From positions 60,070 to 79,286 of the forward strand of contig JAAAIG010000065.1 of NCBI GenBank assembly GCA_015852425.1: DNA of 19,217 bases, written 5' to 3'. The position numbers were made by a program, and so were the translations under genes. The notes beneath the pieces are model-generated. The model saw only the letters and a list, made by a program, of their open reading frames with translations. It was not told where the DNA came from and made no database searches. This stretch comes from Gryganskiella cystojenkinii (taxonomy: Eukaryota > Mortierellomycota > Mortierellomycetes > Mortierellales > Mortierellaceae). Below are positions 3,917-19,217 of this stretch, one piece after another. Every line of letters begins with the position of its first letter. Position 1 is the stretch's first letter.

Positions 3917-6900
3917 ATGGCGACCGCAACCATGGTCCAAGAACAGGATATCTTGATGACCTCAGCATTCCCCTTGGACGGTGCAGATACCTCCTTGACC
4001 GAGGATCTCCCTGATTCCACAGCACCTGGCGCTGGAAGTGGCGTTCCCGACTTTGTCAAGAAACTATACAGGCAAGTTTATATTTACAATTTGTTTGGCG
4101 TTGCTGTTCAGCGCCGTTTGTTTTTGAACGCCCATTTTGTTTTAGTACTTTTTGTACCAAGATTAGCATGGATACACAGCAACTTTTTGTGGGGAGGGGG
4201 TAAACACCATGAAGAAGAGAGGGCTAAAAGGGAGAGAGCAAAAGGAGCAGGTTTAATCCGAGCACGAAAAAGACAGAAACAGATCGTGGGACTCTCAGTG
4301 TGCTCGGGACCTTTTCGAACTCACCACTGGACATATATGCACCGAAAAAGATCAAAACACACGCAACGACACTTTTTTTTTTATTGACTCTCCAATCTTC
4401 CTCTCGCGGTTTACAACCGTCGACGACGTCTTTGTCATCCACCATTATTTCTTCCGTTGTTTATGTTACCATCTCTTCCTCTTTTTTGAAGGAGAGCCCA
4501 ATCGTACGGCTTGATGGATGAGGCGTGTTTCGTGTCTGGGTTGTTTATTTATTTGTGAAGGGACGTCGAATACCAAACAGTTCAGACCCTTTGGATGTCG
4601 CACAACCAGCAAGCGATTCTCTCTCCTTTCCCCTTCTAATTCTAATCAAACCCCTGCCTCACCTCCTCCAAACACTACCAAATATTATCAATCAAACAAA
4701 ATAGGATGCTAGAGGAAAAAGAGCACGACCTTATTGTCTCGTGGGGCAAGAGCGGCGAGACCTTTGTGGTCAAGGAGCCCAACGAGTTTGCCAAGGTCAT
4801 CCTCCCAAAGCATTTCAAGCACAACAACTTTGCAAGTTTTGTCCGCCAGCTGAACAAGTATGATTTCCACAAGATCAAAACCACAGAGGATTCTATCCGA
4901 CCCTATGGTGACCAGGTAAATCATTTGTTGTTTTTTTTGAACAACAAGGGCTATTGGTGATTCCTCCAAAGAACGTGGCTGCACTGTTAGTCGCAAGGTT
5001 TCTGACTCCTATTTTTGCACCTTTAACTTCCACAAACTAGGCTTGGGAGTTTCAGCACCCAAAATTCCAAGTGGACAAGAAGGATCTGCTTGAAAACATC
5101 AAGGTATGAACAAACATCGATCGCATGTTTCATGGCTCTAGACAATCAGTCCCCTCCCCTCCCCTCGTCCGTTCCGAGATCATGGCAACAAAAGCTAAAC
5201 TGCTTGTTATTTTTATTGTTATTTTTATTTCCTTTTTTTTAGCGCAAGACACCAAGTAATAAGAAGGTACCTGGGTCGACCTTGGGATCTTCACCAGACC
5301 AGAATGGGTTCTTGGCAGAGGAGTATCAAGCTCAGTTTGACCAGATGACCAAGACTCAGGCCAAGATGCAGGCAGAGCTGACAAAGTGCGACGCCAAGAT
5401 CAAAACGCAGGATCAACTCATTCAGAGACTCTTGCAAGTTCTTGGATACACCTGTGCAGGTAATACTTTTTTCTATTGCTTTTTTGGTGGCGCTGATTGG
5501 TAGCTTGTTAGATGTATTTAGCAGGATCATCTAAACCTTTTGATTTTTTGGCATTTTCTCTCTCATAGCGGATGGTGATTTGGTAAAATCGGAGCCAAAC
5601 GAGCCTTGCGTCCCTGCCCTCAAGACCGCCACCAAAGCAAAAGCGGCCAGCACAAGTCCAACTCAGCGGAAGAATGGAAAGCAGCAAGCGCAGGCGCAAC
5701 AAACGCAACCACTTCAAGCACAGCCACAACTACAGCCATTACCACCGCAACGATCACCAGAGCAACAAATCCAGTCATTCAACTCGCCTCCTCAACATCA
5801 ATCGTCGTCTTCACCGCCCGAAATCCATGCAGCACAACCTATGGGACTCTCTGGTCCTATTGAGACTCCCTCCACGATACCAACGCCTGCCACTCCTAAT
5901 TCATCATCATCAAATCTGCATATCACCCCTCGGTCGTCTTCGTCTTCGTCTCCATATGGCGAGAACGTCTTCCACCATCCGCTGATGTGTCAGGACCCCA
6001 GCTTGGGAATTCCCTCCCTGACCCTCAGTCACCTCACATCCAAGAAGCATAATGATACGACAAGCAAAACTAGTGTCAAGCCTACGCTCAAGCAGCGAAC
6101 GCTGGCACTAAAGCAGCAAAAGCTTCGACAGGAACAGCAACAGCAACAGCTTCAGCAGCAACAACAACAACAACAACAACAACAGCAACAACATCAGCAG
6201 CAGCAACAGCAGCATCATCATCAACAGCAGCAGCAGTTACAACAGCAACAAATTCAAATGCAGGGGCAGATGCTTCAACAGCAACAGCAACAACAGCAAC
6301 AGCAATACCCGTCAGAACAAACCCCCAACGAGTCTGCTATGATCCAACGACCCAGCACGGTGACTCCAACATGGGCGATGGCGCCTAAGGTTCTGCTTGT
6401 CGAGGATGACGACACTTGCCGACAACTGAGTTCAAGGTTACTCCAGATATTCGGATGTGCCTTTGATGTCGCCGAAGACGGTGTTGCTGCCGTTGGCAAG
6501 ATGAGCCATCAGAAATACGATATCGTTCTTATGGTAAGTTTTTAATCTTGGACATATTTTGTGACTGGAAAAAATGTATGTAGCAGGCATCGAGTCTAAC
6601 TTTTGAGTCAAAATCATACATAATTAGGATATTATGATGCCCAAGTTGGACGGAGTCTCGGCCACGACGCAGATTCGTCAATTTGATGCTATGACGCCGA
6701 TTATCAGTATGACCTCGAACACTACCACGAACGACATTATGACCTACTTTGCAAATGGTATGAACGATATTCTCCCTAAGCCGTTCTCCAAGGCTGGACT
6801 CCTGAACATGCTGGAGAAGCATTGTCAGCATTTGCGGTATATCAAGCTGGGATCGAACCAAGACGAGGGCCGGTTACAACTCTTGTATCGGGCTAACGGC

Positions 6901-7293
6901 AACGGTGCCGGCAACAATGATGGATCTAGCAACGGAACCATGCAGCTCTCACTCACGGACTTTCATGACCCTCAAGCAGGTCCCACGACTCTGCAACTTG
7001 TACATAACGATAAGGTCAACTCGAATGGGAGCGGTAGCGGTAGCGGCAGCGGGAGTCCAGAAGATCCAAGAAACGGCGGCGTTACCTCCCTGGGCTTGGG
7101 TCTCCAACTCGGCAGCATGTTGATCCTGAACAGTCTCGATGGCTCCATGTTGACCCCAGGTTCAAACGACGGTTCCCAGATGTTTAACAATGGTCGACCA
7201 GAGAAGCATGGACTTACTGATGAAAATAATCTCCAGTCTGATTTCATGTCATCGTCCAACGGTCAGATGCAGCAACAACAGCAGCAACATCAT

Positions 7294-7325
<32 letters not shown>

Positions 7326-8007
7326 TCAGCACCAGCAACAACAACAGCAACAACAGCAACAACAACAGCAACAGCAGCAGCAGCAGCAAGCCATGCAAGA
7401 GCATCATGCTGCGATGATGAACTCTCACCATCGTAGTAGCTTGTCTTCGAACATGGCTCCATCTGGTGTTCATACATCGATGCCTATGTCGATGCCTGGT
7501 CCTTCTGCCGTGTCTGCAGCTGGAGTCTTGTCTCCGATTGGACCTCCGTATTCGTCTGCCTCGGGAGGTCCCTCGATGCTAGCCTATTCGTTCGCTCCTC
7601 CTCAGCAACAACAGCACGCCCAACAACAACAACATCAGCAGCAACAGCTTCATCACCAGCAGCAGCAGCAGCAGCCGCATCAACAACAGTTTCATCCACC
7701 AGCGCACCAGCCACTTTTTCATCAACCTGGTACAACTATGACCCTGTTGTCGGTCAAGTCTGAGGGGAATGGTGGATCGATGATGACATCTAACGGTCCC
7801 AACCAGAGCAACAGTCAAGCCAACGGTGGATCTACAGGGTTCTTGCTCGCTGCTGGTCACCCGGGTGATTTTGGCGATGGACTCGACAGCATGGGTCTTG
7901 GCCTGACGCTCGAGGGTGGTGTGGGCAACAACAACAACGGCATGATGAGCAATGCTGGCCTCGGTGGTGGTCGGAGGAAACGTGCCAAGATTGAAGTTAT
8001 TGAGTGA
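3917..8007 (+). CDS. SKN7: Skn7/Prr1-type HSF-domain response regulator transcription factor (six exons)
   Basis: Exons by splice signals and frame: 3917-4071, 4705-4915, 5041-5103, 5243-5459, 5569-6533, 6628-8007, giving 996 codons plus TGA. Residues ~43-145 form an HSF-type DNA-binding domain ([10 protein letters not shown] joined to MLEEKEHD, then [21 protein letters not shown]). Residues ~169-210 are a coiled coil. Residues 489-~600 are a receiver domain with acidic pocket E494/D495/D496, phospho-acceptor D538 ([12 protein letters not shown]), T566 and K588. The C-terminus ends in a basic RRKRAK stretch, a possible nuclear signal. PolyQ blocks occupy about 405-461, 750-791 and 863-891. 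In yeast the Skn7 receiver is phosphorylated through the Sln1-Ypd1 relay, and the protein acts in osmotic, cell-wall and oxidative stress responses; the same role here is inferred. It is longer than yeast Skn7 (about 620 residues), mostly because of low-complexity sequence. The HSF-coiled coil-receiver order excludes an ordinary heat-shock factor. Confidence 0.95.
4072..4704 (+). other. GC-AG intron 1 of the SKN7-type gene, 633 nt
   Basis: The exon ends in CAG and the intron begins GCAAGT, the well-known strong form of non-canonical GC donor. The acceptor is AATAG before GATGCTAGAGG. The split codon AG|G gives Arg, and the joined protein reads KKLYR-MLEEK, matching the uninterrupted HSF fold. 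The nearby GT at 4076 would put exon 2 out of frame. It is far longer than the other four introns: 4916-5040 (125 nt), 5104-5242 (139), 5460-5568 (109) and 6534-6627 (94, with CTAAC at 6596-6600). Confidence 0.88.
6135..6305 (+). repeat. CAG/CAA polyglutamine tract 1
   Basis: Mixed CAA and CAG codons, with a few His, Leu and Met interruptions, encode residues about 405-461 of the SKN7-type protein, just before the receiver domain. Mixed codons indicate a long-standing low-complexity region rather than a pure, freshly expanded CAG run. Glutamine-rich segments often serve in transcriptional activation. Confidence 0.9.
7264..7389 (+). repeat. CAG/CAA polyglutamine tract 2
   Basis: This Gln-rich block with His interruptions encodes residues about 750-791, C-terminal to the receiver domain. 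The antisense frames read as poly-Leu or poly-Ala/Val and are shadows. Confidence 0.9.
7603..7689 (+). repeat. CAG/CAA polyglutamine/histidine tract 3
   Basis: A third Gln/His-rich block encodes residues about 863-891 of the SKN7-type protein. It is followed by His/Pro- and Gly/Asn-rich sequence up to the basic C-terminus. Confidence 0.85.
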
Positions 8008-8487
8008 TCGACTCTCCTCTGTCCCTCTTTCTTTTTCTCTCTCAAAAAGTCTCTTTCATTTTTTCATCCTTGTTGTATTATCCCATTTTTTTTAAAAAAA
8101 GAAACTTTTTCTCAGTGGAGAGACCCCTTGTAACTCAGTACGGAAGAATTCCTTTGCATGGGCCCTGAGTATCTCTTCCATTTTTCCCTGTACCAACAAA
8201 AAACAACCAAGTAAAGTCTTTCTTCAACAATCAAATGAGCATCTCAAATCAAACGGCAGCAGCGAGGAGCTTCATGTCTTGTGTTTGTCGGAAGTCTCGA
8301 TTTTTTGCTCTTTTCCACTCCATCAATCACAGTTGTGCCATTCACGCGCCAATCACGCGCCTCGTGGCCTATCTTATGCTTTTCTTCACACACTCTCGCT
8401 GCCACTCTTTGTATTGTCATCATACTCCTCTTTACTCTGTTTCTCATTGTATCGTGCTGCCAGGCGCTCACATTGCAAGCAAGGTAA
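8008..8487 (+). other. 3' UTR of the SKN7-type gene and intergenic spacer
   Basis: No coding sequence is supported. After the TGA come T-rich and A-rich stretches consistent with fungal 3' processing signals, though no single AATAAA stands out. The 8-mer CACGCGCC occurs twice 11 bp apart (8343-8350 and 8354-8361), separated by AAT so that a CCAAT is formed. This could be promoter sequence of the decayed gene that begins at 8488; that is inference. Confidence 0.45.
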
Positions 8488-10711
8488 ATGGACTCTCTTC
8501 AGCTCTCAGCGCCATGGGAAAATATTTCGTTAAGAGCCGCTTGGCCCTTCCTTAGGTCCAACGTCGGTATAGTTGAATCTGTTCGGGACTCTATTGCATA
8601 CAATGTAACGAAATCAATGATCCAGAAAATGTGTCCCGGGAAAGGTGTTTTGAAGCGGGCACGGGCTTAAAGGCAGCAGGATAATCAACAGGAAGGACAA
8701 AAAAAATGGATCGAAGGACAAATCGATCCGCTTTTACTTTACGGTACTCGCAAGACAATTTACCTTTGGCAGCCCACAGACAAGGAGTATGAGTTGATTC
8801 TACCGAATGTTCCCACTCTCAAAGTCAAATGTGCGTATAACGATACAACAATTGTACGTTACGACGAAGACTTAGCCCGCCAGTTTGTCGATTGACCGGA
8901 CAAGCTTTTACAGGGAGGAGAACAAGACAAGAGAGGGAGGACACTGGGTGGCGTATGATTGCGATGATCATCGCCAGCTGTCAACTCTCTGCAACAGTGG
9001 CACCAATGCGTAGGTGTATCTGAGGTTCCAATGTTATCGGATACGATTGGACGATGAAGAGAGGAATCGAGTCAAGATTACCATTGTCTAGCTTTTTGTT
9101 CTTTTTGCGTTGTAGCTATTTTGGACCGACCCCGCCACTCGTAAGCTTAAAGAAGATCGTCTTACTTGCATGCACCTTGCCTGAAGGACAAATTTGGGCC
9201 GCAGCCAAAAAGAAGAGAATGGAAGGATCCCCATCTCCCCCGTATCCTTTACGACTGTCGGCAACAGCCCATCAGGGCTGATGTCCGCGAAAGGTACTTG
9301 GGATTAAAGAGTCGCCACTCAAGGGACCGCCTCCGAATCCAAGAGCACGAGTTGCAATTCCTGATGGATTTTTTCGAAGGAAAGTCTGCCCTGAACGGCG
9401 TAAGCTTCGACGAACAAGAAGCCATTGTGCATCTTGACCGTCTGTTCGACGACAATGATTACACAATCAGCACCATCGTTCCCATTGAAGGTGCCCTCAA
9501 CTTTGTCCAAGGAAGATGCAAAGCGTTCGAGACCCGGTTTCTCATATTCCGGTGAAGACGCAGTCGAAGATATTCAGATCAGACAGAAGCAGCCTCGTGA
9601 TCCCTTTGATAGTGCGAATGCCTGCTTTCCAAGGACTCCTAAGAACAGGTGTAAGTCGTTTGATAGAGAAGGTCTATGGATAAGTTTCCTGTTTTGTGTC
9701 TTGTATACAGTCTGTTGACAGCTATACCCCGTTGCACCAACAGATATCGAAGCAGAGTCAATTGACAGCCCACCTTTGGTTCCCCGGAAAAAGATCTTGT
9801 TACCCGAGTCTGCAAGCAAAGACTTTTATTCAAGGGGATATTTGAAGACCTCAATCTCGCGACCGGTTTTCAAGCTATTTCTCCGAAGTGAAAAGAAGTC
9901 AAGTGTATATGAAGCATGCGGGTATGCGTATTCAAAAACTTACCTTCTGCCTTATGTTTGATGCAGAATCGTAGTGGCAGGTAAGACATCATTCTGCTCA
10001 AGGACGGTGGAATGGAACTTCAGACGAACACTTTGGATCGGACACTCTTGCAAAATTGGATGTATTATTCCACAACCACTTTGGAAGACCACAGACATCG
10101 CCACTTAGGCGGCCTCAAATCCAAGGCTGGGTGGACGTAAGATTTCTTTTTCTGATTATTCGATTTTCGCACACGATTCAAACGTATGTGCTGTCACTTA
10201 ACACAGGCGATAGGAGACAAGAAGTTTGACAGAGCAGAGTACTTTGCAGAGATGATTTCTTCGCCCCCCTGCTAGTCCTTTAGCACGGAAGCTGTGTACT
10301 TGTATCCTCTCAGCGACAAACGACTTCCTCGGTGAACAACAAGTTGTACTATGAGTTGACAGGATCTTCTCCTATATTGCCCCACTAAGCAGAATGTTCA
10401 TTGCGAATACGGAAAATTGCACATTCTTCAACTTGTAAGTGGTATACAATCTTACGACCTTCAAAATTCGTGATGTTTGTGGATTGTTGGTTATGGCATT
10501 TTCTCCTTTACAATTGGTGTTTCCTAGAACACAGTGTCGAGTCATACTTCAAGTAGCCGCAAAGGGTCTGACATAGTGCTTGAGCCACATGCACGCAAAA
10601 GACCTACTTGACAATATCGAGGATGGTATGGCTCTGCATGCGACTGTGAAGTCTTCGGGAGTACTTGTCACATCCGGCAAACGGAAACTAGGGTGGTGTG
10701 GTCAACCATGA
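8488..10711 (+). pseudogene. Decayed multi-exon gene, family unknown, with kinase-like remnant at its 3' end
   Basis: Protein-like stretches run in one direction but are broken repeatedly. A frame from ATG 8488 is stopped by TAA 8668-8670, continues in the same frame to TGA 8893-8895, then shifts one base and meets TAG 9011 and TAG 9089. Another stretch, about 9166-9552, is rich in charged residues (FFEGKSALNGVSFDEQEAI) and needs a one-base shift near 9500-9550 to continue. Splice-like introns at 9651-9743, 10137-10206 and 10435-10527 keep the frame across their junctions, so this was once a spliced gene. Further stops occur at 10273, 10333 and 10574. The segment at about 10529-10708 resembles a protein-kinase helix E and catalytic loop with lost key residues. 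The part at about 8891-9088 has a W-x-x-Y pattern faintly like a WWE domain, which I do not claim. No confident family assignment. Confidence 0.6.
10529..10711 (+). other. Degenerate protein-kinase-like catalytic segment within the pseudogene
   Basis: One frame reads LQVAAKGLT, stop (TAG 10574), LSHMHAKDLL, and then HATVKSSGVLVTSGKRKLGWCG, of which I compare HATVKSSGVLV with the kinase pattern HRDLKSSNVLV and KLGWCG with KLGDFG. The spacing between the two motif positions is about 17 residues, as in real kinases. The catalytic Asp, the Asn and the DFG Asp are all absent, and a stop interrupts helix E. The similarity is short and judged by eye. Confidence 0.35.
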
Positions 10712-11170
10712 CAATCTGGTTGCATGCATTAGTGAGTTCTTGGTAAAGCATAGCCTAGGTCGACTCTCCAATATGTTTTCCCGTTGTTTATCATGGCTCT
10801 ATCCTAGTGTCCAGTTGGGTCCGTAGGCGGTCCTCTGCGATTTCCAGCCGACAGCTACTCAACAAAGAGAGCATGGCAAAGTACAAGAAAGAGAGCCTGG
10901 CTTAGAAAAAGAAAGGGAGCACCCTCGGCGCGAGACAAGTTGAGGATTCCACTCCTTTCATCTCCCGACCAGTCATCTAATTCACATTGTCATTCACTAT
11001 CGGCTTTCATCCTCAAGTTAGCCATCATTTACATTTTGTCATCTCTTTGGACACCTGGAGATTGCCACATTGCCCAAACAGCTGTCCTCTTTGGCAGTGA
11101 AGCTCGTCCGTCTCTTTTCCAGACCGGTCTCCTGTTTAAACGATCGGTTATAGTCGTCGACAGACCAACA
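10712..11170 (+). other. Spacer and probable promoter of the NACHT gene
   Basis: No coding sequence is recognised. The stretch separates the decayed gene from the first leader intron candidate at 11171. It has mixed composition with a C/T-rich portion at about 10945-11040 that could mark the transcription start. I see no repeat boundaries or target-site duplications. Confidence 0.35.
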
Positions 11171-12061
11171 GTAAGTTGGAGTGACATAGCACAGCATGTA
11201 ATAACAGTGTTGTGTGAGTATACAAAACTAATTGGTGTCAGTTAGGACGTCTGCCTTTATCTCGCACTATTACGGATATCTCACAAGTCATACCAAGCAG
11301 TCTCCAAAGAGTAAGTCGGGTAAGTCTCTATTGAACGAAGGGACTTATCTCTCTGGTATTGTCGATTTTATCGCTATCTTACAAATAAACTCATCTGGTG
11401 AAAATCAATCCTCTATCCGATCAAGCGCGTCGTCTTGACAAACAGCAGCAATCAAAACGAACAAAGTCAACATCCGACCAACACCTCACCAACTGTAAGT
11501 TGATGTACCAATCGAAGACGATGGAAAAGGCGATGTTTTCACACACAATTAACTGCGTTCTACCCCGCTTCATTGGTGGTAACTCATCGCACTCTATTAT
11601 CTATTCTCTATACTCTTCAGGAGGTGCACATTGCGTTCAATTCACAAAACCGTGTCACCAAGGTTTCAAGGTAACTGCTCGGACGGGAAGTAATCTGATT
11701 TTCTTTATTTTTCTCAACGTCGAGTAACAGGGTCGCTCTTTCTTCATTAGTTCACGCCCGCATCTCGCCGTTGTCAAGGCGTCCACGTCTCAAATAGCCA
11801 CATAAACTGCGTCGCGTAAGTTACCTCTCACGAACAAGACTCCAATATTAACGTCCATTCCCATAAACAGCCCATATCCACACACGCCATCTTGCGTCCT
11901 AACTATATTCAGCATTTGCAATCGCTTTACATCCCATCAAGCAAAGTCGCATTAGGCATTGTAAGTGTGTCTGTTTGTCACCTGCCGCTACTCCCTGACG
12001 TATCAACCTTCTCGGGCCTGAAATTAATCTTACCCCTTCCCGTGTGCTCACTACCTAGCAG
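11171..12061 (+). other. Intron-rich 5' leader of the NACHT gene
   Basis: Six intervals look like short introns, five with a GTAAGT donor: 11171-11245 (or -11241), 11311-11445 (second GTAAGT at 11320), 11495-11620, 11671-11750 (GTAACT donor), 11816-11870 and 11961-12061. Each ends in a plausible CAG or TAG, and most have an A-rich branch-like motif. The intervening exons would be only about 50-90 nt. With the last intron removed, the frame of the ATG at 12078 meets a TAG in the exon 11871-11960, so these small exons appear to be untranslated. The last two intervals are the best supported; the others are inference. Confidence 0.5.
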
Positions 12062-12077
12062 ATCACGCAGGGACAAC

Positions 12078-15000
12078 ATGTTTGAAAGCAAAGTGTCATC
12101 CAAGAGAAGTCCACTTCCGCCGCAGAGAGAGCTGGGGCTTGTCAAAATTTATTTGGAGCAAGGCCGCACCGCCAGCAAGGAACGGAAACACGATATCGCG
12201 CTTGTGCTATGTGAGGAGGCGGAGGCATCGTTATCCCAAATGAAAAAAGGTGTAAGAGCCGCCGAGGCCGTCCAGGACGTCACGGACCTGCGCCATGGCA
12301 TCGCTTGCGCTTTTTTAGAGCTCAGCAAACTCCTGGATGAACTGAAGAAGCCGAAAAGAGCAAAGGAGAACTACAAGAAGGCGCATGAGTGGGGATACAC
12401 CGAGGTAGAGAAGTTGTCCATCTCATCTCTGCGGTCCCTTGAGGGCTCGGCTTCTACTACAGCTCAGCCGTCACTCAAGACCACCAAAGCAGCCCAACCG
12501 ACACTCGAGACCTCCGTTTCCGTCGTGACTCAACTGTCCCTCGGCAGATCCGCTACCATCGATGTTGAGGTGTCAGCCATTGGAGACTTTTTTGCCCAGG
12601 ACAAATATCCGCCGGTGACCGAGTATAGCTTGCCGGAACCAGACGAACGCCTTGCGAATACGCACCAACTTGTCTATTGCCTTGGTCTTCTGAGGTCTCC
12701 ACCGTCGCCTGACGACCCTCATCAGGACTCTGCGCGAATCTGGGTTAAAGCAACACAGAACAACAAAGATGAGCAGGAAAGACTCAACACCTTGACGACG
12801 AACCTAGTTCGGGCATTCAGTCGTGATGAGCTGAAGGGTCCAACGGCTGTTGCAGAAGTCGCATGCATCGCCTCGTTCCTCAACAAGGACGATTTTCGAT
12901 ATCTACTTGAACTGTTCACCGACAGTATTGCGAAATCCACCTTGCTACATGTCAACTCTCTGGAAGGTCTTGCCAAGCTAGTGCAAGGTGCGAACGAGGG
13001 CTACCTCCAGGCGGCTGATTTGGTCAAGATCCTTGAAGTCCTCAACACCAACTTGCATACCACACACGATCAAACCCAGGACTACATTTATCAGCTCATG
13101 ATGGCAGTGTCACACGTCCTGGATGCCATGGCCGATTGCAAAGTCACGGGCTTGGATCGTGTCACTCTTCACGAGAGCCTCGCCGGGTACATGGAAAAGC
13201 TGAAGAACAGCAAGGACCCTCATATGGTGTACCTGGCCGCCTATGCCTTTCAGGCACTGGAGTGTGTGCCTGACAACGAAAGCCCCTGGCAGGCCACGAA
13301 ACGGCGGACAGAAAATATTATGCAGGGCGTCTTCGGTGTGGTGAAGGCAGTGAAAGGCCTGGACGTCAATAGCTTTCTGGAGAGCATAAGGGATATCGAA
13401 GACGGACTGGATGGAGCGGTCAAGGTCTTCAAAACTCTCAAAGATGGTTACGACAGCGTTGCTGCACTGGTAGACAGTGGACAAAGCCTGTTTGAAGCCC
13501 TAAAAGACGGTCTCAATTTTGATCGCCAACGCTCCTGGTATTCCCTTTTGCGAGGCACAGACAGGGTCATTCGGGACGGCCAACTCACCAAGTTTAGAAC
13601 CCTCGTCCTCGAGGCTCCATGCCGACGCAGCCTTGCCTTTCAGTGGGGAGTGTGCCAGCGCTTAGGTGATCTTGCAGCCAATCCAGCCTGGGATGCAGAG
13701 TCTCGCGAGGACGCTCTGGAGTTCTTGGCCGAGATCTACCAGAATGATGCCGTCTGGGGCTATCACGAACACGTCAAGCAAAAGATTTTGGATATCTTAT
13801 TGCACTTGCAGCAGCAGTCAGACAACGCCTTTCAAGGTATATGTGTGTCATGAAGATCTAATGTAACAATCAATGACATTGTCAATGACCACGAGACAAT
13901 GGCATGAACGGCGATCTAACAGCGTTTGCATGTTCATCTCTATTTTCTCTAGTGTTTGATAGCGCAATTGCTAGAAGAGTGCTGCAGAGACTGAAGCACA
14001 ATGGCGGTACGACGAAGCAAACCCTGTACAATAATTGTCTAGATCAAGGCCCAAGCCAATACCCATTAAAAACCTCGCGGCCACAATTTGCAACCCTGAC
14101 CTTGCTGGATCGCGTCCAGAACAAGCCAGATGTCGAGGAGGATTTGCGAAAGCTGAGGCAACAGAGACTGAAAGAGCGAGGAGATGCACCCTATATCCCT
14201 CCCCGAGCGAAGGCCAACCTGAGAGCGTCAGATGACGTCCTGTTTGACTTGACGGAGGAAGTGGAGAAGTTCCTGGCTGGCGACAAGAAGGTATTGCTTC
14301 TGCTTGGCGATTCTGGCTCTGGAAAGTCGACCTTCAACCAGGCTCTCGAATGCGACTTGTGGGGTGTCTACAAGAAAAAGGAGGGTCGGATCCCACTATT
14401 TATCAACTTACCCGCCATTGACAAGCCGGAACGGGATCTGATTGCCAAACAGCTCCGAAAGGCAGAGTTCACTGAGCCCCAGATCAGAGAGTTAAAGCTC
14501 TACCGCGAATTCATCTTGATCTGTGATGGGTACGACGAGAGTCAGCAGACCCACAACCTGTACACGAGCAACCGGCTGAATCGGGAAGGCGAGTGGAAGG
14601 CTCAAATGGTGATCAGTTGCCGAAGCGAGTACCTTAGTCTTGACCATCAGGATCAGTTCCAGCCAGTAGATCTCAACCACCAAGCGAGGCCATTATTGTT
14701 CCAAGAGGCGGTTATTGCACCATTCTCAGCGAAACAGGTTCAACAGTATATTGATAAATATGTTGCCATGACGGAGCCGCTCTGGAACGCCAAGGACTAC
14801 TCAGAAGCTCTCATTCAGATTCCCAGCCTTCGAGACTTGGCCAAGAACCCTTTCATGCTCACACTGACGTTGGAGGTCTTGCCTCGCGTGGTGGATCTGG
14901 AAGAGACGCACTCAGCCACCCGAATAGCCAGAGTCGAATTATACGACCACTTTGTTGAACAATGGTTAGAGCGTGGCAAAAAGCGATTAGCGGAGAAAAC

Positions 15001-18000
15001 TTCGTCTAGCGAGGAGCGTCGGGCTTTTGAAGTCTTGGTCAAGGAAGGCTTTACAGAGAACGGCATTGCCTTCTTGAAGGACCTGGCAGTGGCGATCTAC
15101 GAATTTCAGTCAGGAAACACTGTGGTAGAATACAAACGCTTTGTTAACAAAGGGACATGGAAGGACGCATTCTTTGGTCGAGATTATGAGAAACAGGTTC
15201 TACTTGAGGCCAGTCCGCTGACCCGCAGCGGCAATCAGTACCGGTTTATTCACAAATCGCTCCTGGAATATTGTGTCGCCAGGGCAGTCTTTGAAGCTCG
15301 AGAGACAGGTAGTGACGGTGGATGGACATCAACATTGCTCGATCGAAGGATGCCGAGTCAAGGGTCGAGCCTTGAGAGTCAAGATGGTCATAGGGACAAA
15401 TCACCCGCTGCTGCACTTAATGTGCTCGAATCCGTATTGACGAGGATCAATTTTGCTGGTGAGTCATCGATTTTGCAACTTTTGGAGGAACGAGTCCAAC
15501 TAGACCCTGCCTTTGAGAAGAGGTTATTCACGGTTCTCGAACGGTCGACAAAGGACAAGACGATGCGCCTGGCAGCAGCCAATGCGAGTACGATACTGAA
15601 TGTTGCTTGTCCAGTCATCAAATACGAATTACCGGAACCAGATCAACGCATCATCAGCACCTCTCAACTCCGGTATTGCCTCAGTTTGTTGCCAAGTCCG
15701 AATTCCTCTACTCAAGCCCTCGATGAAACCGAACGTGCATGGTCACAAGCCACAGTCATGGATCTCGACGAACAGACGCGACTGCGGAAGTTAGCAGCTG
15801 AGCTTCTGGCAGGTTTTAGTCGCGATGACCATAAGCTGGAAATCTTAGTCGCCGAAGTGGTGTGTATCGTACCAATCCTCGATCAAGAACAGCTCAAAAG
15901 GCTGCGCATGGACTTTATTGGCGGTATCAGGGAGGACCGGCCCCATATGGTCGAAGGTCTGGCGCAATTGATGCTGCAAGCCACACCAGGACACCTCAAT
16001 ACTAAGGATCTTGCTGAGATATTGGAGGCTCTCAGACACCGATTACTAGATGTCGTGCAACCATCAGGGCAGCATGTTTACAAACTAGCGCTGGCAGTGT
16101 CACACATTTTGGATGCAGCGGCTGACTGTCAAATCAAAGGCTGTAACTATGGACAGCTTCTCGAGTCCTTCTCCATCTATTTGAATAGGCTGAAGGGCAG
16201 CATAGACCCATATCTTGTGTATCAAGCGGCCCATGCCTTTCAAGCATTGCTTTATGCCTCAACCGATAAATCCGTAATGCATATCGTACCCTGGCACGCG
16301 ATTAGGGCGCCACAGTACAATGCAGGACTCGCGAGAGATACCAAAGATCGGGACCTCGAATGCTTTGTTGAGGGACTGTCATACGGACAAGGACTGCCTG
16401 CAGCCAATATAGATCAGGGCAACATCCCATACCAGACGGCGACGTTGCTAGTGGAGAGTGGGAAGTCCTTTCTAGACTCCATTGAAGGAAGCTTCAAAGA
16501 TAAGAGCATGTGGTATCCTGCACTACGCGGAGTAGACACGTTGCTGCAAGGAGGACAGCTAGCAAGATCCAAGAAACTAATCTACAGAGTGCCCTGCCGC
16601 CGTGATCCTGCCTTCCAATGGGGAGTATGCCAACGACTCGGGGACCTCGCGAGCAATTCTCGCTGGGATGAATTTACGCGCCAGAATGCTGTCACCTTTT
16701 TAGGCGAGATCTACGTGGATGATGCGCAATGGGGCCAGAATACCACTGTCAAGAAATGGATCGTTAATATCCTCACCCATTTGAAGGCCTCGACTAAGAG
16801 CCCAGTAAAGGATCGCGCCGGCGTGCTTCTTCAAGAGCTAGAAAATAATGGCGATGCAGCGAAACGCGCTCTGTTTCAGCTCAATGATGGTACTGCCTTG
16901 TATCCATTGACGGTTGCCTTACCCCAGACGACGTCGTCACTCTTGCTCGATAGCATTCAGAACAGGCCTGATGTTGAAGCCGACTTGCAACGATTGAAAG
17001 AGCAGCGACTGAAGGAACGGAGTGACGCCATCTATGTTCCTCCGCAAGCCAAGGCTAGTGTTCGAGCACAAGATACGGATCTGTTCGACTTGATGGAAAA
17101 GGCCAACAAGTTTCTGGACGATATGGACCAAAAAGTCTTGCTCTTGCTCGGCGAAGTTGGTGTGGGAAAGTCAACGTTCAAAATGGAACTCGAGTCTCAG
17201 TTATGGAGCAAATACGAAAAGAGAATGGGCTCTATCCCACTCTTCATCAGCTTGCCTACCATCTTCCGGCCTGAACAGGAACTGATCGTTAAGCAGCTAC
17301 GAAAGGTCGGGTTTGAAGAGTCACAGATTCGAGTTTTGAAGGAGCGCAAGTTCGTGTTGATCTGTGACGGATACGATGAAAGTCAGCGAACCCACAACTT
17401 GTATATGAGCAATCGGTTTAATCAAGAGGGCGAGTGGAAGGCCCAAATGGTGATCAGCTGCCGAAGCAAGTACATCGGTCTTCACTACCAGGACGCATTC
17501 TGGCCTGGTAATCGCCACCAGTTTCAAGAAGCAGTGGTCATGCCCTTCAACGCTAATCAAGTCAATGAGTACATCAAGAGCTTCGTCCTCCTCAAGAAGT
17601 CACTCTGGAGTGCTGATAAGTACATCAATGTGCTGGAACATATTCCAAGCTTGAAAGACTTGATCAAGGACCCGTTCCTGCTGACGTTGTCACTAGATGT
17701 GCTGCCGCGCCTGATCGATCCAAATCAAACGATCAATTCCGCCGCGAAGGTCACTAGAACGGCGCTATATGACGAGTTCCTGGAGCAATGGCTGGAACGC
17801 GGCAAGAAGCAGCTCGCGGACAAGGACCTGAGCGCACAAGAGAAGAAAGCCCTGCAAAGTCTTTCGGACGACGGATTCGCGCGGAATGGTATCGATTATT
17901 TAAAGAGACTCGCGACAGAGATATACAACAAGCAAAATGGCAATCCAGTCATCAAGTACTCGCGTCTTGATGATGTGGGGTCATGGAAGGACGCGTTCTT

Positions 18001-19217
18001 CGGTAGCGAGGACGACAAGCAGTTGTTGCGTGATGCCTGTCCGTTGACACGGAGCGGTAACGAATTCCGTTTTATCCATCGATCATTCTTGGAGTATGGG
18101 CTGGCACGTGCAGTATTTGATCCACAAAATGGAGGCATCGTTTTACCGACAGAGATGTTGAAACGTCGAGGCAGTGCGTATAGCTTCGAGATGGAAAGCG
18201 CTCTGGAGGATATGGATGTCTCGATCGCACAAGGTCCCGATGACAGGTCTCCACTGTTTAGGAGAAGCTTTGTTGGCGAGCCCTCGGTTCTGCAGTTTCT
18301 AGTAGAACGCGCGAAACAAGGACCTGTGTTCAAGTACCAACTTCTCGAATTCATTGAGTCTTCCAAAGTTGACAAGAAATGGCGTACTGCAGCAGCCAAT
18401 GCCATCACGATTTTGGTCAGAGCCGGCGTAAACTTTAACGGGGTAGATTTGAAAGGCGTACAGATTCCACAAGCGGATCTGAGTGGAGGCCAATTCGATT
18501 CGGCTCAGCTAGAAGGGGCAGATTTGAGGAAGGCCAATCTTCGCAATATTTGGCTGCGTCAGGCAAACTTGAGCAGGGCGCAGATGGCAGGCGTGCAGTT
18601 CGGAGAATGGCCGTATTTACTGCAAGGCAGTGAGGTACTTTGCTGCTCTTATTCACCGAACGGTGAAACCTGCGTCCTTGGCCTTAGAGATGGTACGGTC
18701 AGCGTGTATGATACCATAACTTGGGCTAAAACCAACACCTTTCAAGGACATGTCAACCATGTTACGAGCGTGTTGTATTCTCCTAGCGGTCACCAGATCG
18801 CGTCGGGTAGTCTGGACAAGACGGTGCGGCTGTGGGACACGCTTACTGGTACACCTGGCCCCATCCTGACCGGCCATACCGATAGTGTTACGAGCGTGGT
18901 GTATTCTCCCAGCGGTCACCAGATTGCGTCAGGCAGTTTGGACAACACTGTGCGGTTGTGGGACACCGAAACCGGTGCACTTGGCTTCATCTTACATGGC
19001 CATACCGACGTTGTTACGAGTGTGGTATATTCTCCCAGCGGTCACCAGATTGCGTCAGGCAGTCGAGATAAGACAGTGCGGCTGTGGGACACGCTTACCG
19101 GTTCACCTGGCCCCATCCTGACCGGCCATACCGATAGTGTTACGAGCGTGGTGTATTCTCCCAGCGGTCACCAGATTGCATCAGCCAGTTTGGACAATAC
19201 AGTGCGGTTGTGGGACA
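12078..19217 (+). CDS. Tandem double-NACHT STAND protein with pentapeptide and WD40 repeats (3' partial)
   Basis: Exons 12078-13836 and 13953 onward give at least 2341 residues, with no stop before the window edge. The start is the first ATG in frame (MFESKVSS), since the open frame upstream has no ATG. Residues ~15-115 are helical and TPR-like. Residues 127-165 are a Thr/Ser-rich linker with three imperfect AQPSLKT-type repeats. Then come two homologous units, each an alpha-helical module plus NACHT. Unit 1 has Walker A GDSGSGKST (705-713) and Walker B LICDGYDE (D778). Unit 2 has GEVGVGKST (1653-1661) and LICDGYDE (D1725). Both carry CRS-(E/K)-Y, QWLERGKK and FIH(K/R)S(L/F)LEY motifs typical of NACHT modules. 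Residues ~2081-2137 are pentapeptide repeats and from ~2145 WD40. NACHT STAND proteins use NTP binding and oligomerisation to switch on a response after ligand binding by their repeats. Cytosolic location and a nonself-sensing role are inferred. No HET, Goodbye, PNP-phosphorylase or lipase effector domain is recognisable. Confidence 0.9.
13837..13952 (+). other. Coding intron in NACHT unit 1 (116 nt)
   Basis: Donor CAAG|GTATAT, branch-like CTAAC at 13916-13920 and acceptor TTTCTCTAG. Splicing joins NAFQ to VFDSAIARRVL in frame. Without it, translation stops at TGA 13851-13853. The joined sequence continues the homology with unit 2, which supports the model. Confidence 0.88.
14306..14332 (+). 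other. Walker A (P-loop) of NACHT 1
   Basis: Encodes GDSGSGKST, residues 705-713, preceded by KKVLLLL, a hydrophobic beta strand. Lys711 and Ser712 are the expected nucleotide-binding residues. The matching Walker B starts at about 14510. Confidence 0.95.
15623..18433 (+). repeat. Internal duplication, unit 2 (helical module + NACHT 2)
   Basis: This copy starts at YELPEPDQR and ends where the pentapeptide repeats begin. It is homologous to unit 1 throughout but lacks the coding intron. It has also diverged in the stretch equivalent to residues 416-479 of unit 1, where the GVVKAVKGLD-type helices are not preserved. Walker A and B remain intact. Confidence 0.9.
17150..17176 (+). other. Walker A (P-loop) of NACHT 2
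   Basis: Encodes GEVGVGKST, residues 1653-1661, preceded by QKVLLLL. Lys1659 is present, so this second NTPase also looks competent. Its Walker B Asp codon is at 17366. Confidence 0.95.
18434..18604 (+). repeat. Pentapeptide-repeat segment
   Basis: About eleven consecutive A(D/N)LXX-like units cover residues 2081-2137, for example FNGVDLKGVQIPQADL and GADLRKANLRN. Such repeats form a right-handed quadrilateral beta helix. They lie directly between NACHT 2 and the WD40 array, so they may act as a rigid spacer or as part of the sensor. Confidence 0.85.
18626..19217 (+). repeat. WD40 repeat array (incomplete at window edge)
   Basis: One divergent repeat (18626-18745) is followed by units of exactly 126 nt (42 residues) at 18746, 18872, 18998 and 19124, the last cut by the window end. 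Each has GH...VTSV-YSPSGHQIAS-S--D-TVRLWD. The units are almost identical at DNA level. They would form part of a beta-propeller used for ligand recognition, and more blades must lie beyond 19217. Confidence 0.95.

Follow-up and report, generated by a model that had tools for sequence, protein, structure and literature searches.

Architecture of the locus

The window, a stretch of 19,217 nucleotides from a contig of Gryganskiella cystojenkinii, carries a gene that appears, on the domain matches, to encode a receptor-like protein with two complete switches in series, where its relatives have one. Joining of the exons at a GT-AG intron gives a stop-free chain of 2341 amino acids in the order N-terminus, ARM1, NACHT1, ARM2, NACHT2, pentapeptide stretch and WD40 repeats, whose features are as follows.

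12078-13836, + strand: exon 1, carrying the N-terminus and ARM1
12078-12620, + strand: N-terminal region (aa 1-181), without an annotated effector domain
12621-13836, + strand: ARM1 (ARM_5, PF23948; 240 bits), the 3' part of exon 1, in a clade of widespread paralogues
13837-13952, + strand: GT-AG intron at the ARM1/NACHT1 boundary, where the exons join; site shared with paralogues
13994-15613, + strand: NACHT1 with winged-helix and helical tail (Pfam NACHT match)
14306-14332, + strand: Walker A of NACHT1 (GDSGSGKST)
14471-16990, + strand: conserved tandem core, made up of ARM2 and most of NACHT1, common to the other tandem proteins; limits approximate
14516-14539, + strand: Walker B of NACHT1 (LICDGYDE)
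15242-15259, + strand: RFIHKS of NACHT1
15584-15650, + strand: fusion junction, the NACHT1 tail running directly into ARM2 (TILNV, then KYELPE)
15614-16861, + strand: ARM2 (ARM_5; Pfam, 132 bits), a single clade in five proteins
16859-18448, + strand: NACHT2 with winged-helix and helical tail, nearest to its own paralogue L016/P0032
17150-17176, + strand: Walker A of NACHT2 (GEVGVGKST)
17357-17380, + strand: Walker B of NACHT2 (LICDGYDE)
18068-18085, + strand: RFIHRS of NACHT2
18431-18589, + strand: pentapeptide-repeat stretch, 29.5 bits, under the family cut-off of 125; precomputed PF00805 in P0001
18640-19217, + strand: WD40 repeats (PF00400), start approximate, cut by the contig end

Among the Pfam matches listed, ARM_5 is found once per exon, exon 2 further has two separate NACHT stretches and WD40, and NACHT1 and NACHT2 each exceed the family cut-off alone (37.6 and 35.8 bits against 26.7). 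With 46% identity between the two copies (aa 189-1121 and aa 1150-2060), these matches bear out the tandem of two helical-plus-NACHT modules described in the initial annotation, as do its two P-loops (14306 and 17150) and two Walker B motifs, both reading LICDGYDE. The frame it had read as free of stops from 13953 to 19217 does stay open over that stretch, up to the last base of the window, where the contig (length 79286) ends as well, and in-frame stops are absent from 13904 to 19216. The single intron, however, does not join the two modules, as had been claimed: it separates ARM1 from NACHT1, and the two units are joined without an intron. Similar residues flank this site, with the same GT/AG ends, in three of the five paralogues scanned (L024, L025 and L026); L016 and L027 gave no hit in the intron motif scan, L027 being 80% identical by blastn across the site and L016 having no blastn match.

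At the fusion junction, unit 1 has no pentapeptide or WD40 repeats and unit 2 no N-terminus. The single repeat sensor of the earlier view is visible only as far as the contig end, so the C-terminus is missing. The WD40 DNA repeats have a period of 126 nt, and their copies match the reference copy at 79% and 89% identity in a region cut by the contig end, figures to be read beside the repeat criterion of more than 85% identity over at least 100 aa given in the available portion of PMC4986451. At the other end of the chain, the best relatives of the N-terminal region show 79-89% identity in aa 1-120 and 51-71% in aa 81-200, and a Pfam search of aa 1-223 with E values up to 0.1 gave no match, so that no effector domain was recognised.

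Nucleotide-switch motifs and comparison with known receptors

The five switch motifs checked are all found in both window NACHTs, and likewise in NACHT1 of P0002, P0003 and P0004; we take the RFIHKS of NACHT1, by analogy, to contain the winged-helix histidine. A set of 192 other units has 115 conserved columns, of which NACHT1 of the window keeps 105 and NACHT2 109. Four NACHT1 units deviate at 7-11 of these columns, against a median of 1 and a 90th percentile of 7 in the 192 other units, and this greater departure of NACHT1 suggests that the NTPases may be non-equivalent. The dN/dS ratios (NG86 / YN00) are 0.17 / 0.26 for NACHT2 against L016, 0.10-0.13 / 0.15-0.21 for ARM1 against L024, L025 and L027, and, at dS values of 1.4-2.7 that are near saturation, 0.16 / 0.24 and 0.11 / 0.14 for NACHT1 against L024 and L014, respectively. 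Comparison of ARM2 with its own paralogues was saturated and yielded no value. On these ratios, both window NACHTs are estimated to be under purifying selection.

The chain has a NACHT above the curated cut-off, Walker A and B motifs in each NTPase and a C-terminal WD40 repeat sensor, as in NLR/STAND proteins; it departs from the usual single NTPase per chain in having two complete NACHTs. Two-NBS NLRs exist in rice and wheat. According to the available part of PMC5041133, the rice CC-NBS-NBS-LRR proteins BPH18, BPH26 and Pib each contain a pair of NBS domains, the first of them partial, lacking most of the ARC and with a divergent P-loop, and BPH18 is functional by complementation. The generalisation in the initial annotation that usual STAND/NLR proteins have a single NTPase is therefore too broad, although in these cases the first NBS is partial. 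As described there, the rice proteins are of the plant NB-ARC type with LRR, whereas the window shows NACHT and WD40 (among the 25 of 59 exon 2 matches listed), both NACHTs are complete, NACHT1 covering profile positions 1-554 and reading GDSGSGKST, and the helical domain is duplicated too.

Likenesses are also found among fungi and their endosymbionts. Single ARM_5-NACHT-pentapeptide-WD40 NLRs of Mortierellaceae, together with endosymbiont NLRs from Mycoavidus and Glomeribacter (P0060, P0076, P0173), have the same domains in the same order per unit, but one ARM_5 and one NACHT per chain where the window protein has two of each. In this regard, the accessible text of PMC11291939 describes Mortierellomycota NLRs as derived from, or shared with, Mycoavidus. 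In HET-E/NWD-type proteins of Podospora and other fungal NLRs, NACHT is combined with WD40 repeats resembling one another within a gene, and N-terminal, NOD and repeat domains are mixed and matched; HET-E itself carries a single NACHT, centrally placed, and at the N-terminus a HET death effector (PMC4986451, as far as its available sections go), unlike the window protein, in which no effector domain was recognised. In the literature searched, no report of a two-NACHT protein was found; the papers naming two NACHTs concern, by title, mostly human NLRP3, NLRC4 and NLRC5. Among solved structures, a profile of unit 2 and its relatives matched mostly WD40 chains, Apaf-1 included (best 60 of 875), and NACHT1 alone gave only a weak match to NLRC4 (E 0.046). 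PADLOC returned only weak matches, at the P-loop, and an NCBIfam search nothing above a cut-off.

Tandem relatives and the history of core and ends

When NACHT-NACHT architectures were sought in relatives, the same junction (TILNV, then KYELPE) was found in P0002, P0003, P0004 and P0174, from three other genera (Mortierella sp. AD032, Dissophora and Gamsiella). P0002 of Dissophora globulifera (2699 aa), a database protein and the sole relative seen whole, covers 100% of exon-2 residues 1-1400 at 61% identity and reads ARM-NACHT-ARM-NACHT with one C-terminal WD40 region; P0003 and P0174 are cut off by the ends of their contigs, and P0004 is a partial sequence whose ARM2 is shortened. A second tandem, P0007, is joined differently. 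No second double-NACHT tandem gene was found in the window's own genome. Five further database proteins (P0005, P0006, P0009, P0017 and P0121) also hold two ARM-NACHT units, but these lie about 700-1200 residues apart; in all except P0121, which is placed here by spacing alone, WD40-type repeats lie between the units, much as if neighbouring genes had been read as a single one.

Across five proteins, NACHT1 falls into a single clade and so does ARM2 (100% SH-aLRT in both cases), in subclades that also contain Mycoavidus and Glomeribacter proteins. Neither ARM1 nor NACHT2, in contrast, forms a clade of its own (AU p 1.7e-67 and 1.2e-5, respectively, in the three proteins testable). Co-descent of ARM1 and NACHT2 with the core was rejected by these AU tests in the three proteins having both. 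As reconstructed from the trees, the NACHT1-ARM2 core is a unit that stayed together, and ARM1 and NACHT2 fall in different paralogue clades by species. The initial annotation had not noticed that the ends of the protein and its core are placed in different paralogue clades.

Possible modes of action

The explanation that we consider best as a whole, at a probability of roughly 45%, is that of one Mortierellaceae ARM_5-NACHT-WD40 NLR with two switch modules in series, paired in cis. That the locus encodes one real tandem protein is very probable, and both NTPases probably bind nucleotide. The protein would be translated as a single chain, with its C-terminal WD40 sensor controlling the adjoining NACHT2; once activated, NACHT2 would engage in cis the NACHT1 tethered to it, which would serve as the following protomer. 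In this way the receptor would bring a ready-made pair of protomers to its oligomer, so that every two NTPases share a single sensor and a single N-terminal output region. The chain would most likely represent a covalently paired NLR, in which NACHT2 is gated by the sensor and partnered in cis by NACHT1; pairing of the protomers as the working mode is put forward tentatively. The pre-formed dimer or double-gated switch suggested in the initial annotation would likewise be hypothetical.

Whether the tandem exists as such bears on two alternatives. An assembly artefact could be suspected where a contig ends in similar WD40 repeats, at which assemblies break; with units just 46% identical and the same junction in the assemblies of other species (P0002, P0003, P0004, P0174), it is exceedingly improbable, and we reject it because of that shared junction. 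A split into two genes, ARM1-NACHT1 and ARM2-NACHT2-WD40, the latter driven by a separate promoter near 15350, would agree with the automatic gene call P0001, which starts at an M at nt 15351 and would split the gene. But unit 1 lacks a stop and unit 2 an N-terminal region, P0002 is annotated as a single protein spanning the junction, and aa 1081-1200 around it are closer to P0003, P0002 and P0004 (71-86% identity) than to the best singles (58-61%), which makes this split very unlikely.

The remaining alternatives concern what the tandem does. It is unlikely that the tandem form is a by-product lacking any function of its own, left by unequal crossing-over or gene conversion within a large family of NLRs, even though the protein ends are mosaic with paralogues, some NLR loci of the same genome share contigs (C325 and C531, three NACHT matches each) and the differently joined P0007 exists. 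Against it, the core and junction persist with open frames in four genera, the window's included, and letting the core decay at random to 83% identity introduced a mean of 8.8 stops (minimum 1, 200 runs), an argument that leans one way because protein databases list open frames only. It is rather doubtful that NACHT1 is a non-cycling regulatory copy, keeping fold and motifs and serving NACHT2 as a clamp or relay instead of as an equal protomer. In line with this notion are the deviations of NACHT1 at conserved columns and the distribution of an exact RRGS linker, absent after NACHT1 in 5/5 direct tandems (the window protein, P0002, P0003, P0004 and P0007), present after NACHT2 in 4/4 and found in 117/146 units of other proteins, sister P0008 among them. 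The five switch motifs are nevertheless kept in NACHT1, its dN/dS is low, RRGS occurs in only 6/17 units of the same genome and P0174 has RRSAS at that position; as the five tandems do not count as independent cases and the motif was chosen post hoc, the linker asymmetry is too weak to lean on. A further reading, possible although less probable than cis pairing, holds that a double-switch core was fixed across genera and that input (NACHT2 and sensor) and output (N-terminus and ARM1) were exchanged with paralogues, as in a covalent NLR pair of two separately gated switches. With both sides swapped around a fixed core, each species would plug different inputs and outputs into a two-NTPase relay.

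Activation of NLRs is viewed as the switching, by assembly, of one NTPase per chain, a single NTPase being usual but not strictly defining. Two complete, conserved NTPases in one chain offer a natural test of how such receptors turn on, and raise the questions of whether protomers can pair in cis, whether firing is needed at both sites and how oligomer stoichiometry changes when two switches share one sensor. Our findings also suggest that fungal NLRs can exchange modules around a multi-domain core that itself stays fixed.

Gene model and surroundings

The window takes up the last 19217 of the 79286 bases of contig C712, in a 35-Mb genome of the family Mortierellaceae. Its tandem NLR gene, in which each of two units comprises an ARM and a NACHT module, has the following features:

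12078-13836, forward strand: exon 1, with an ARM_5 match of 240 bits
13837-13952, forward strand: GT-AG intron, inside unit 1
13953 to window end, forward strand: exon 2, with a second ARM_5 match (132 bits), two NACHT stretches and WD40
14306 and 17150, forward strand: P-loops
14516 and 17357, forward strand: Walker B motifs

When spliced, the exons encode 2341 aa free of stops. The frame is open from 13904 to 19216, in agreement with the open stretch 13953-19217 claimed in the initial annotation, and both P-loops lie where it had placed them. The intron, which had been described as joining the two modules, actually lies within unit 1, and the same-genome paralogues L024, L025 and L026 have an intron at the matching site with similar flanking residues. 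Across 943 aligned positions, units 1 and 2 share 46% identity. Unit 1 leads directly into ARM2, at the point where the single-NACHT relatives shown (singles) continue into pentapeptide-type repeats. We estimate at roughly 90% the probability that the tandem is one real chain.

In the neighbouring region, two ORFs at 5580-8007, with long glutamine-rich runs, match PF00072, the receiver domain of response regulators: one covers its first half (profile positions 1-48; 25.0 bits, below cut-off), the other its second half (positions 51-110; 42 bits). They probably represent one spliced response regulator, which we take to be Skn7-like. Nearly 4 kb (8008-11891), with no listed ORF above 129 aa, separate this gene from the frame holding the first NLR exon.

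Distribution of the tandem architecture

Two NACHT modules in one frame, as claimed from the sequence, are a real architecture present in four genera. Two NACHTs occur in 9 of the 173 proteins (including P0001, the window's own automatic gene call) gathered from the first two of three protein searches, a frequency that is biased because each search scored just the 7994-8000 candidates with most common words and these two listed the best 120 of 941 and the best 120 of 389 relatives. In four of the nine (P0002, P0003, P0004 and P0007) the second ARM follows NACHT1 immediately; in the other five (P0005, P0006, P0009, P0017 and P0121) it lies at least 700 residues further on, and these may be adjacent genes read as one. 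A further relative, P0174 (Gamsiella multidivaricata), came from the third search. The initial annotation had proposed looking for NACHT-NACHT architectures in related genomes, and the window's junction (TILNV, then KYELPE) is indeed common to P0002, P0003, P0004 and P0174. Of these, P0002 (Dissophora globulifera BGZ98_008181) alone is available in full. P0003 (Mortierella sp. AD032) breaks off shortly after the NACHT2 P-loop and P0174 shortly before it, and P0004 (D. globulifera BGZ99_000468) is a partial protein whose ARM2 is shortened. The annotated start of P0003 is probably wrong, ARM1 being absent from its gene model, because its N-terminal residues resemble the window intron read through (13904-13952). 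P0007 (JGI source), whose P-loops end in GKSI and GKSM, is joined at a different point and its NACHTs cluster with other singles; it is therefore probably an independent fusion, tandems having arisen at least twice.

Within the genome, 60 NACHT matches exceed the cut-off. By position, the two on C712 lie 2.8 kb apart, and spacing exceeds 4 kb on the other multi-NACHT contigs (C325, C508 and C531). The NACHT1-ARM2 core (777 aa, nt 14471-16801) gave at least 59 matches from 58 scored of 129 candidates, the counts being lower bounds; among the 58 besides the core itself, two of which are other parts of the same gene, none spans both halves. NLR-like matches with internal stops on contigs C107, C997, C397, C95 and C67 of this genome are either pseudogenes or introns read through.

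According to the parts of the literature available, N-terminal, NOD and repeat domains occur in mixed combinations among fungal NLRs (PMC4986451). NLRs with two NBS domains are described for rice, namely BPH18, BPH26 and Pib, whose first NBS is partial (PMC5041133; Pib also in PMC4917536), and for wheat, as candidates at Rwt4 (PMC10027608) and for Pm40 (PMC8508864). Queries for 'tandem NACHT', 'two NACHT domains' and 'double NACHT' found no paper in a corpus mostly outside the subscription literature, and the wording 'two NACHT' or 'NACHT-NACHT' occurs in other papers. The available text of a Sordariales survey contains neither 'two NACHT' nor 'multiple NACHT' (PMC12258605), and that of the 2014 fungal survey lacks 'two NACHT' (PMC4986451).

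A core with exchanged ends and its possible origin

Sequence comparisons suggest a conserved core with exchanged ends across the tandem proteins. In trees of 42 rows each (34 hand-picked singles and 8 tandem units), a single branch unites the five NACHT1 units, and likewise the five ARM2 units (100% SH-aLRT each). A wider FastTree of 201 NACHT and 181 ARM units, excluding P0174 and P0001, recovered each set of four with support 1.0. Forcing together the ARM1 units of the window protein, P0002 and P0004 costs 412 log units (p-AU 1.7e-67), and their NACHT2 units 109 (p-AU 1.2e-5), these p-values being somewhat flattering since the FastTree result was known before the tests.

Scanning the window protein in 80-residue steps, the best match is a single-NACHT paralogue at every step up to aa 721-800, and P0003 at 21/21 steps from aa 761-840 to 1561-1640. 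At the following step P0004 is narrowly ahead of the genome's own L016; L016 or P0032 then leads to about aa 2120, and other paralogues beyond. The left limit is soft because P0003 comes close to the top single across aa 601-800; within ARM2, in stretches at about aa 1240-1360, the scores of singles equal or exceed those of P0002 and P0004. The pattern may reflect a survivor effect: exchange within the core would break up the tandem, so the core is the part that has to stay joined.

Outside the tandems, NACHT1 is nearest to P0008 (Dissophora ornata, single-NACHT) and P0167 (96% SH-aLRT), and P0008 is likewise the nearest single to ARM2, which fits the doubling of one gene lineage; both ends would have been replaced later. 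The core falls in subclades also containing Mycoavidus and Glomeribacter proteins, the trees not indicating the direction of transfer. One study holds that the NLRs of Mortierellomycota derive from Mycoavidus or are common to both (PMC11291939).

State of the two switches and a possible mechanism

The window keeps 105 (NACHT1) and 109 (NACHT2) of the 115 columns that are conserved to 95% or more across 192 other units; those other units show a median of 1 mismatch, a 90th percentile of 7 and a maximum of 56. NACHT1 keeps 104 in P0003, 105 in P0002 and 108 in P0004; NACHT2 keeps 111 in P0002 and 94 in P0004, the latter shortfall coming mostly from a split match with the tail left out. NPF, one of five motifs checked, was missed by the pattern in NACHT2 of P0002 and P0004, where the alignment reads TNPF. 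NACHT1 thus diverges more than usual yet retains the five motifs.

The dN/dS ratio (NG86 / YN00) is 0.17 / 0.26 for NACHT2 against L016, 0.16 / 0.24 and 0.11 / 0.14 for NACHT1 against L024 and L014 (at dS of 1.4-2.7, near saturation), and 0.10-0.13 / 0.15-0.21 for ARM1 against L024, L025 and L027. All ARM2 comparisons, NACHT1 against L016 and NACHT2, and NACHT2 against L024 and L014 were saturated and gave no value. Under simulated random decay to 83% identity, the core acquired a mean of 8.8 stops (minimum 1, 200 runs).

RRGS, possibly a phosphorylation site, follows the NACHT2 winged helix of the window (18164-18175). It occurs in 117/146 units of other relatives, 6/17 own-genome loci, none of the five NACHT1 units and all four NACHT2 units of direct tandems.

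In NLRs in general, the sensor keeps the NTPase closed, the ligand permits nucleotide exchange and protomers assemble via NACHT. We consider it likely that the chain has two nucleotide-binding sites. Pairing of NACHT1 and NACHT2 in cis is put forward tentatively, at somewhat less than even odds. The main rival reading takes NACHT1 as a regulatory, non-cycling copy. The sensor adjoins NACHT2, and the presumed output region adjoins ARM1-NACHT1. In the simplest working scheme, NACHT2 would open first and would then take the tethered NACHT1 as its neighbour.
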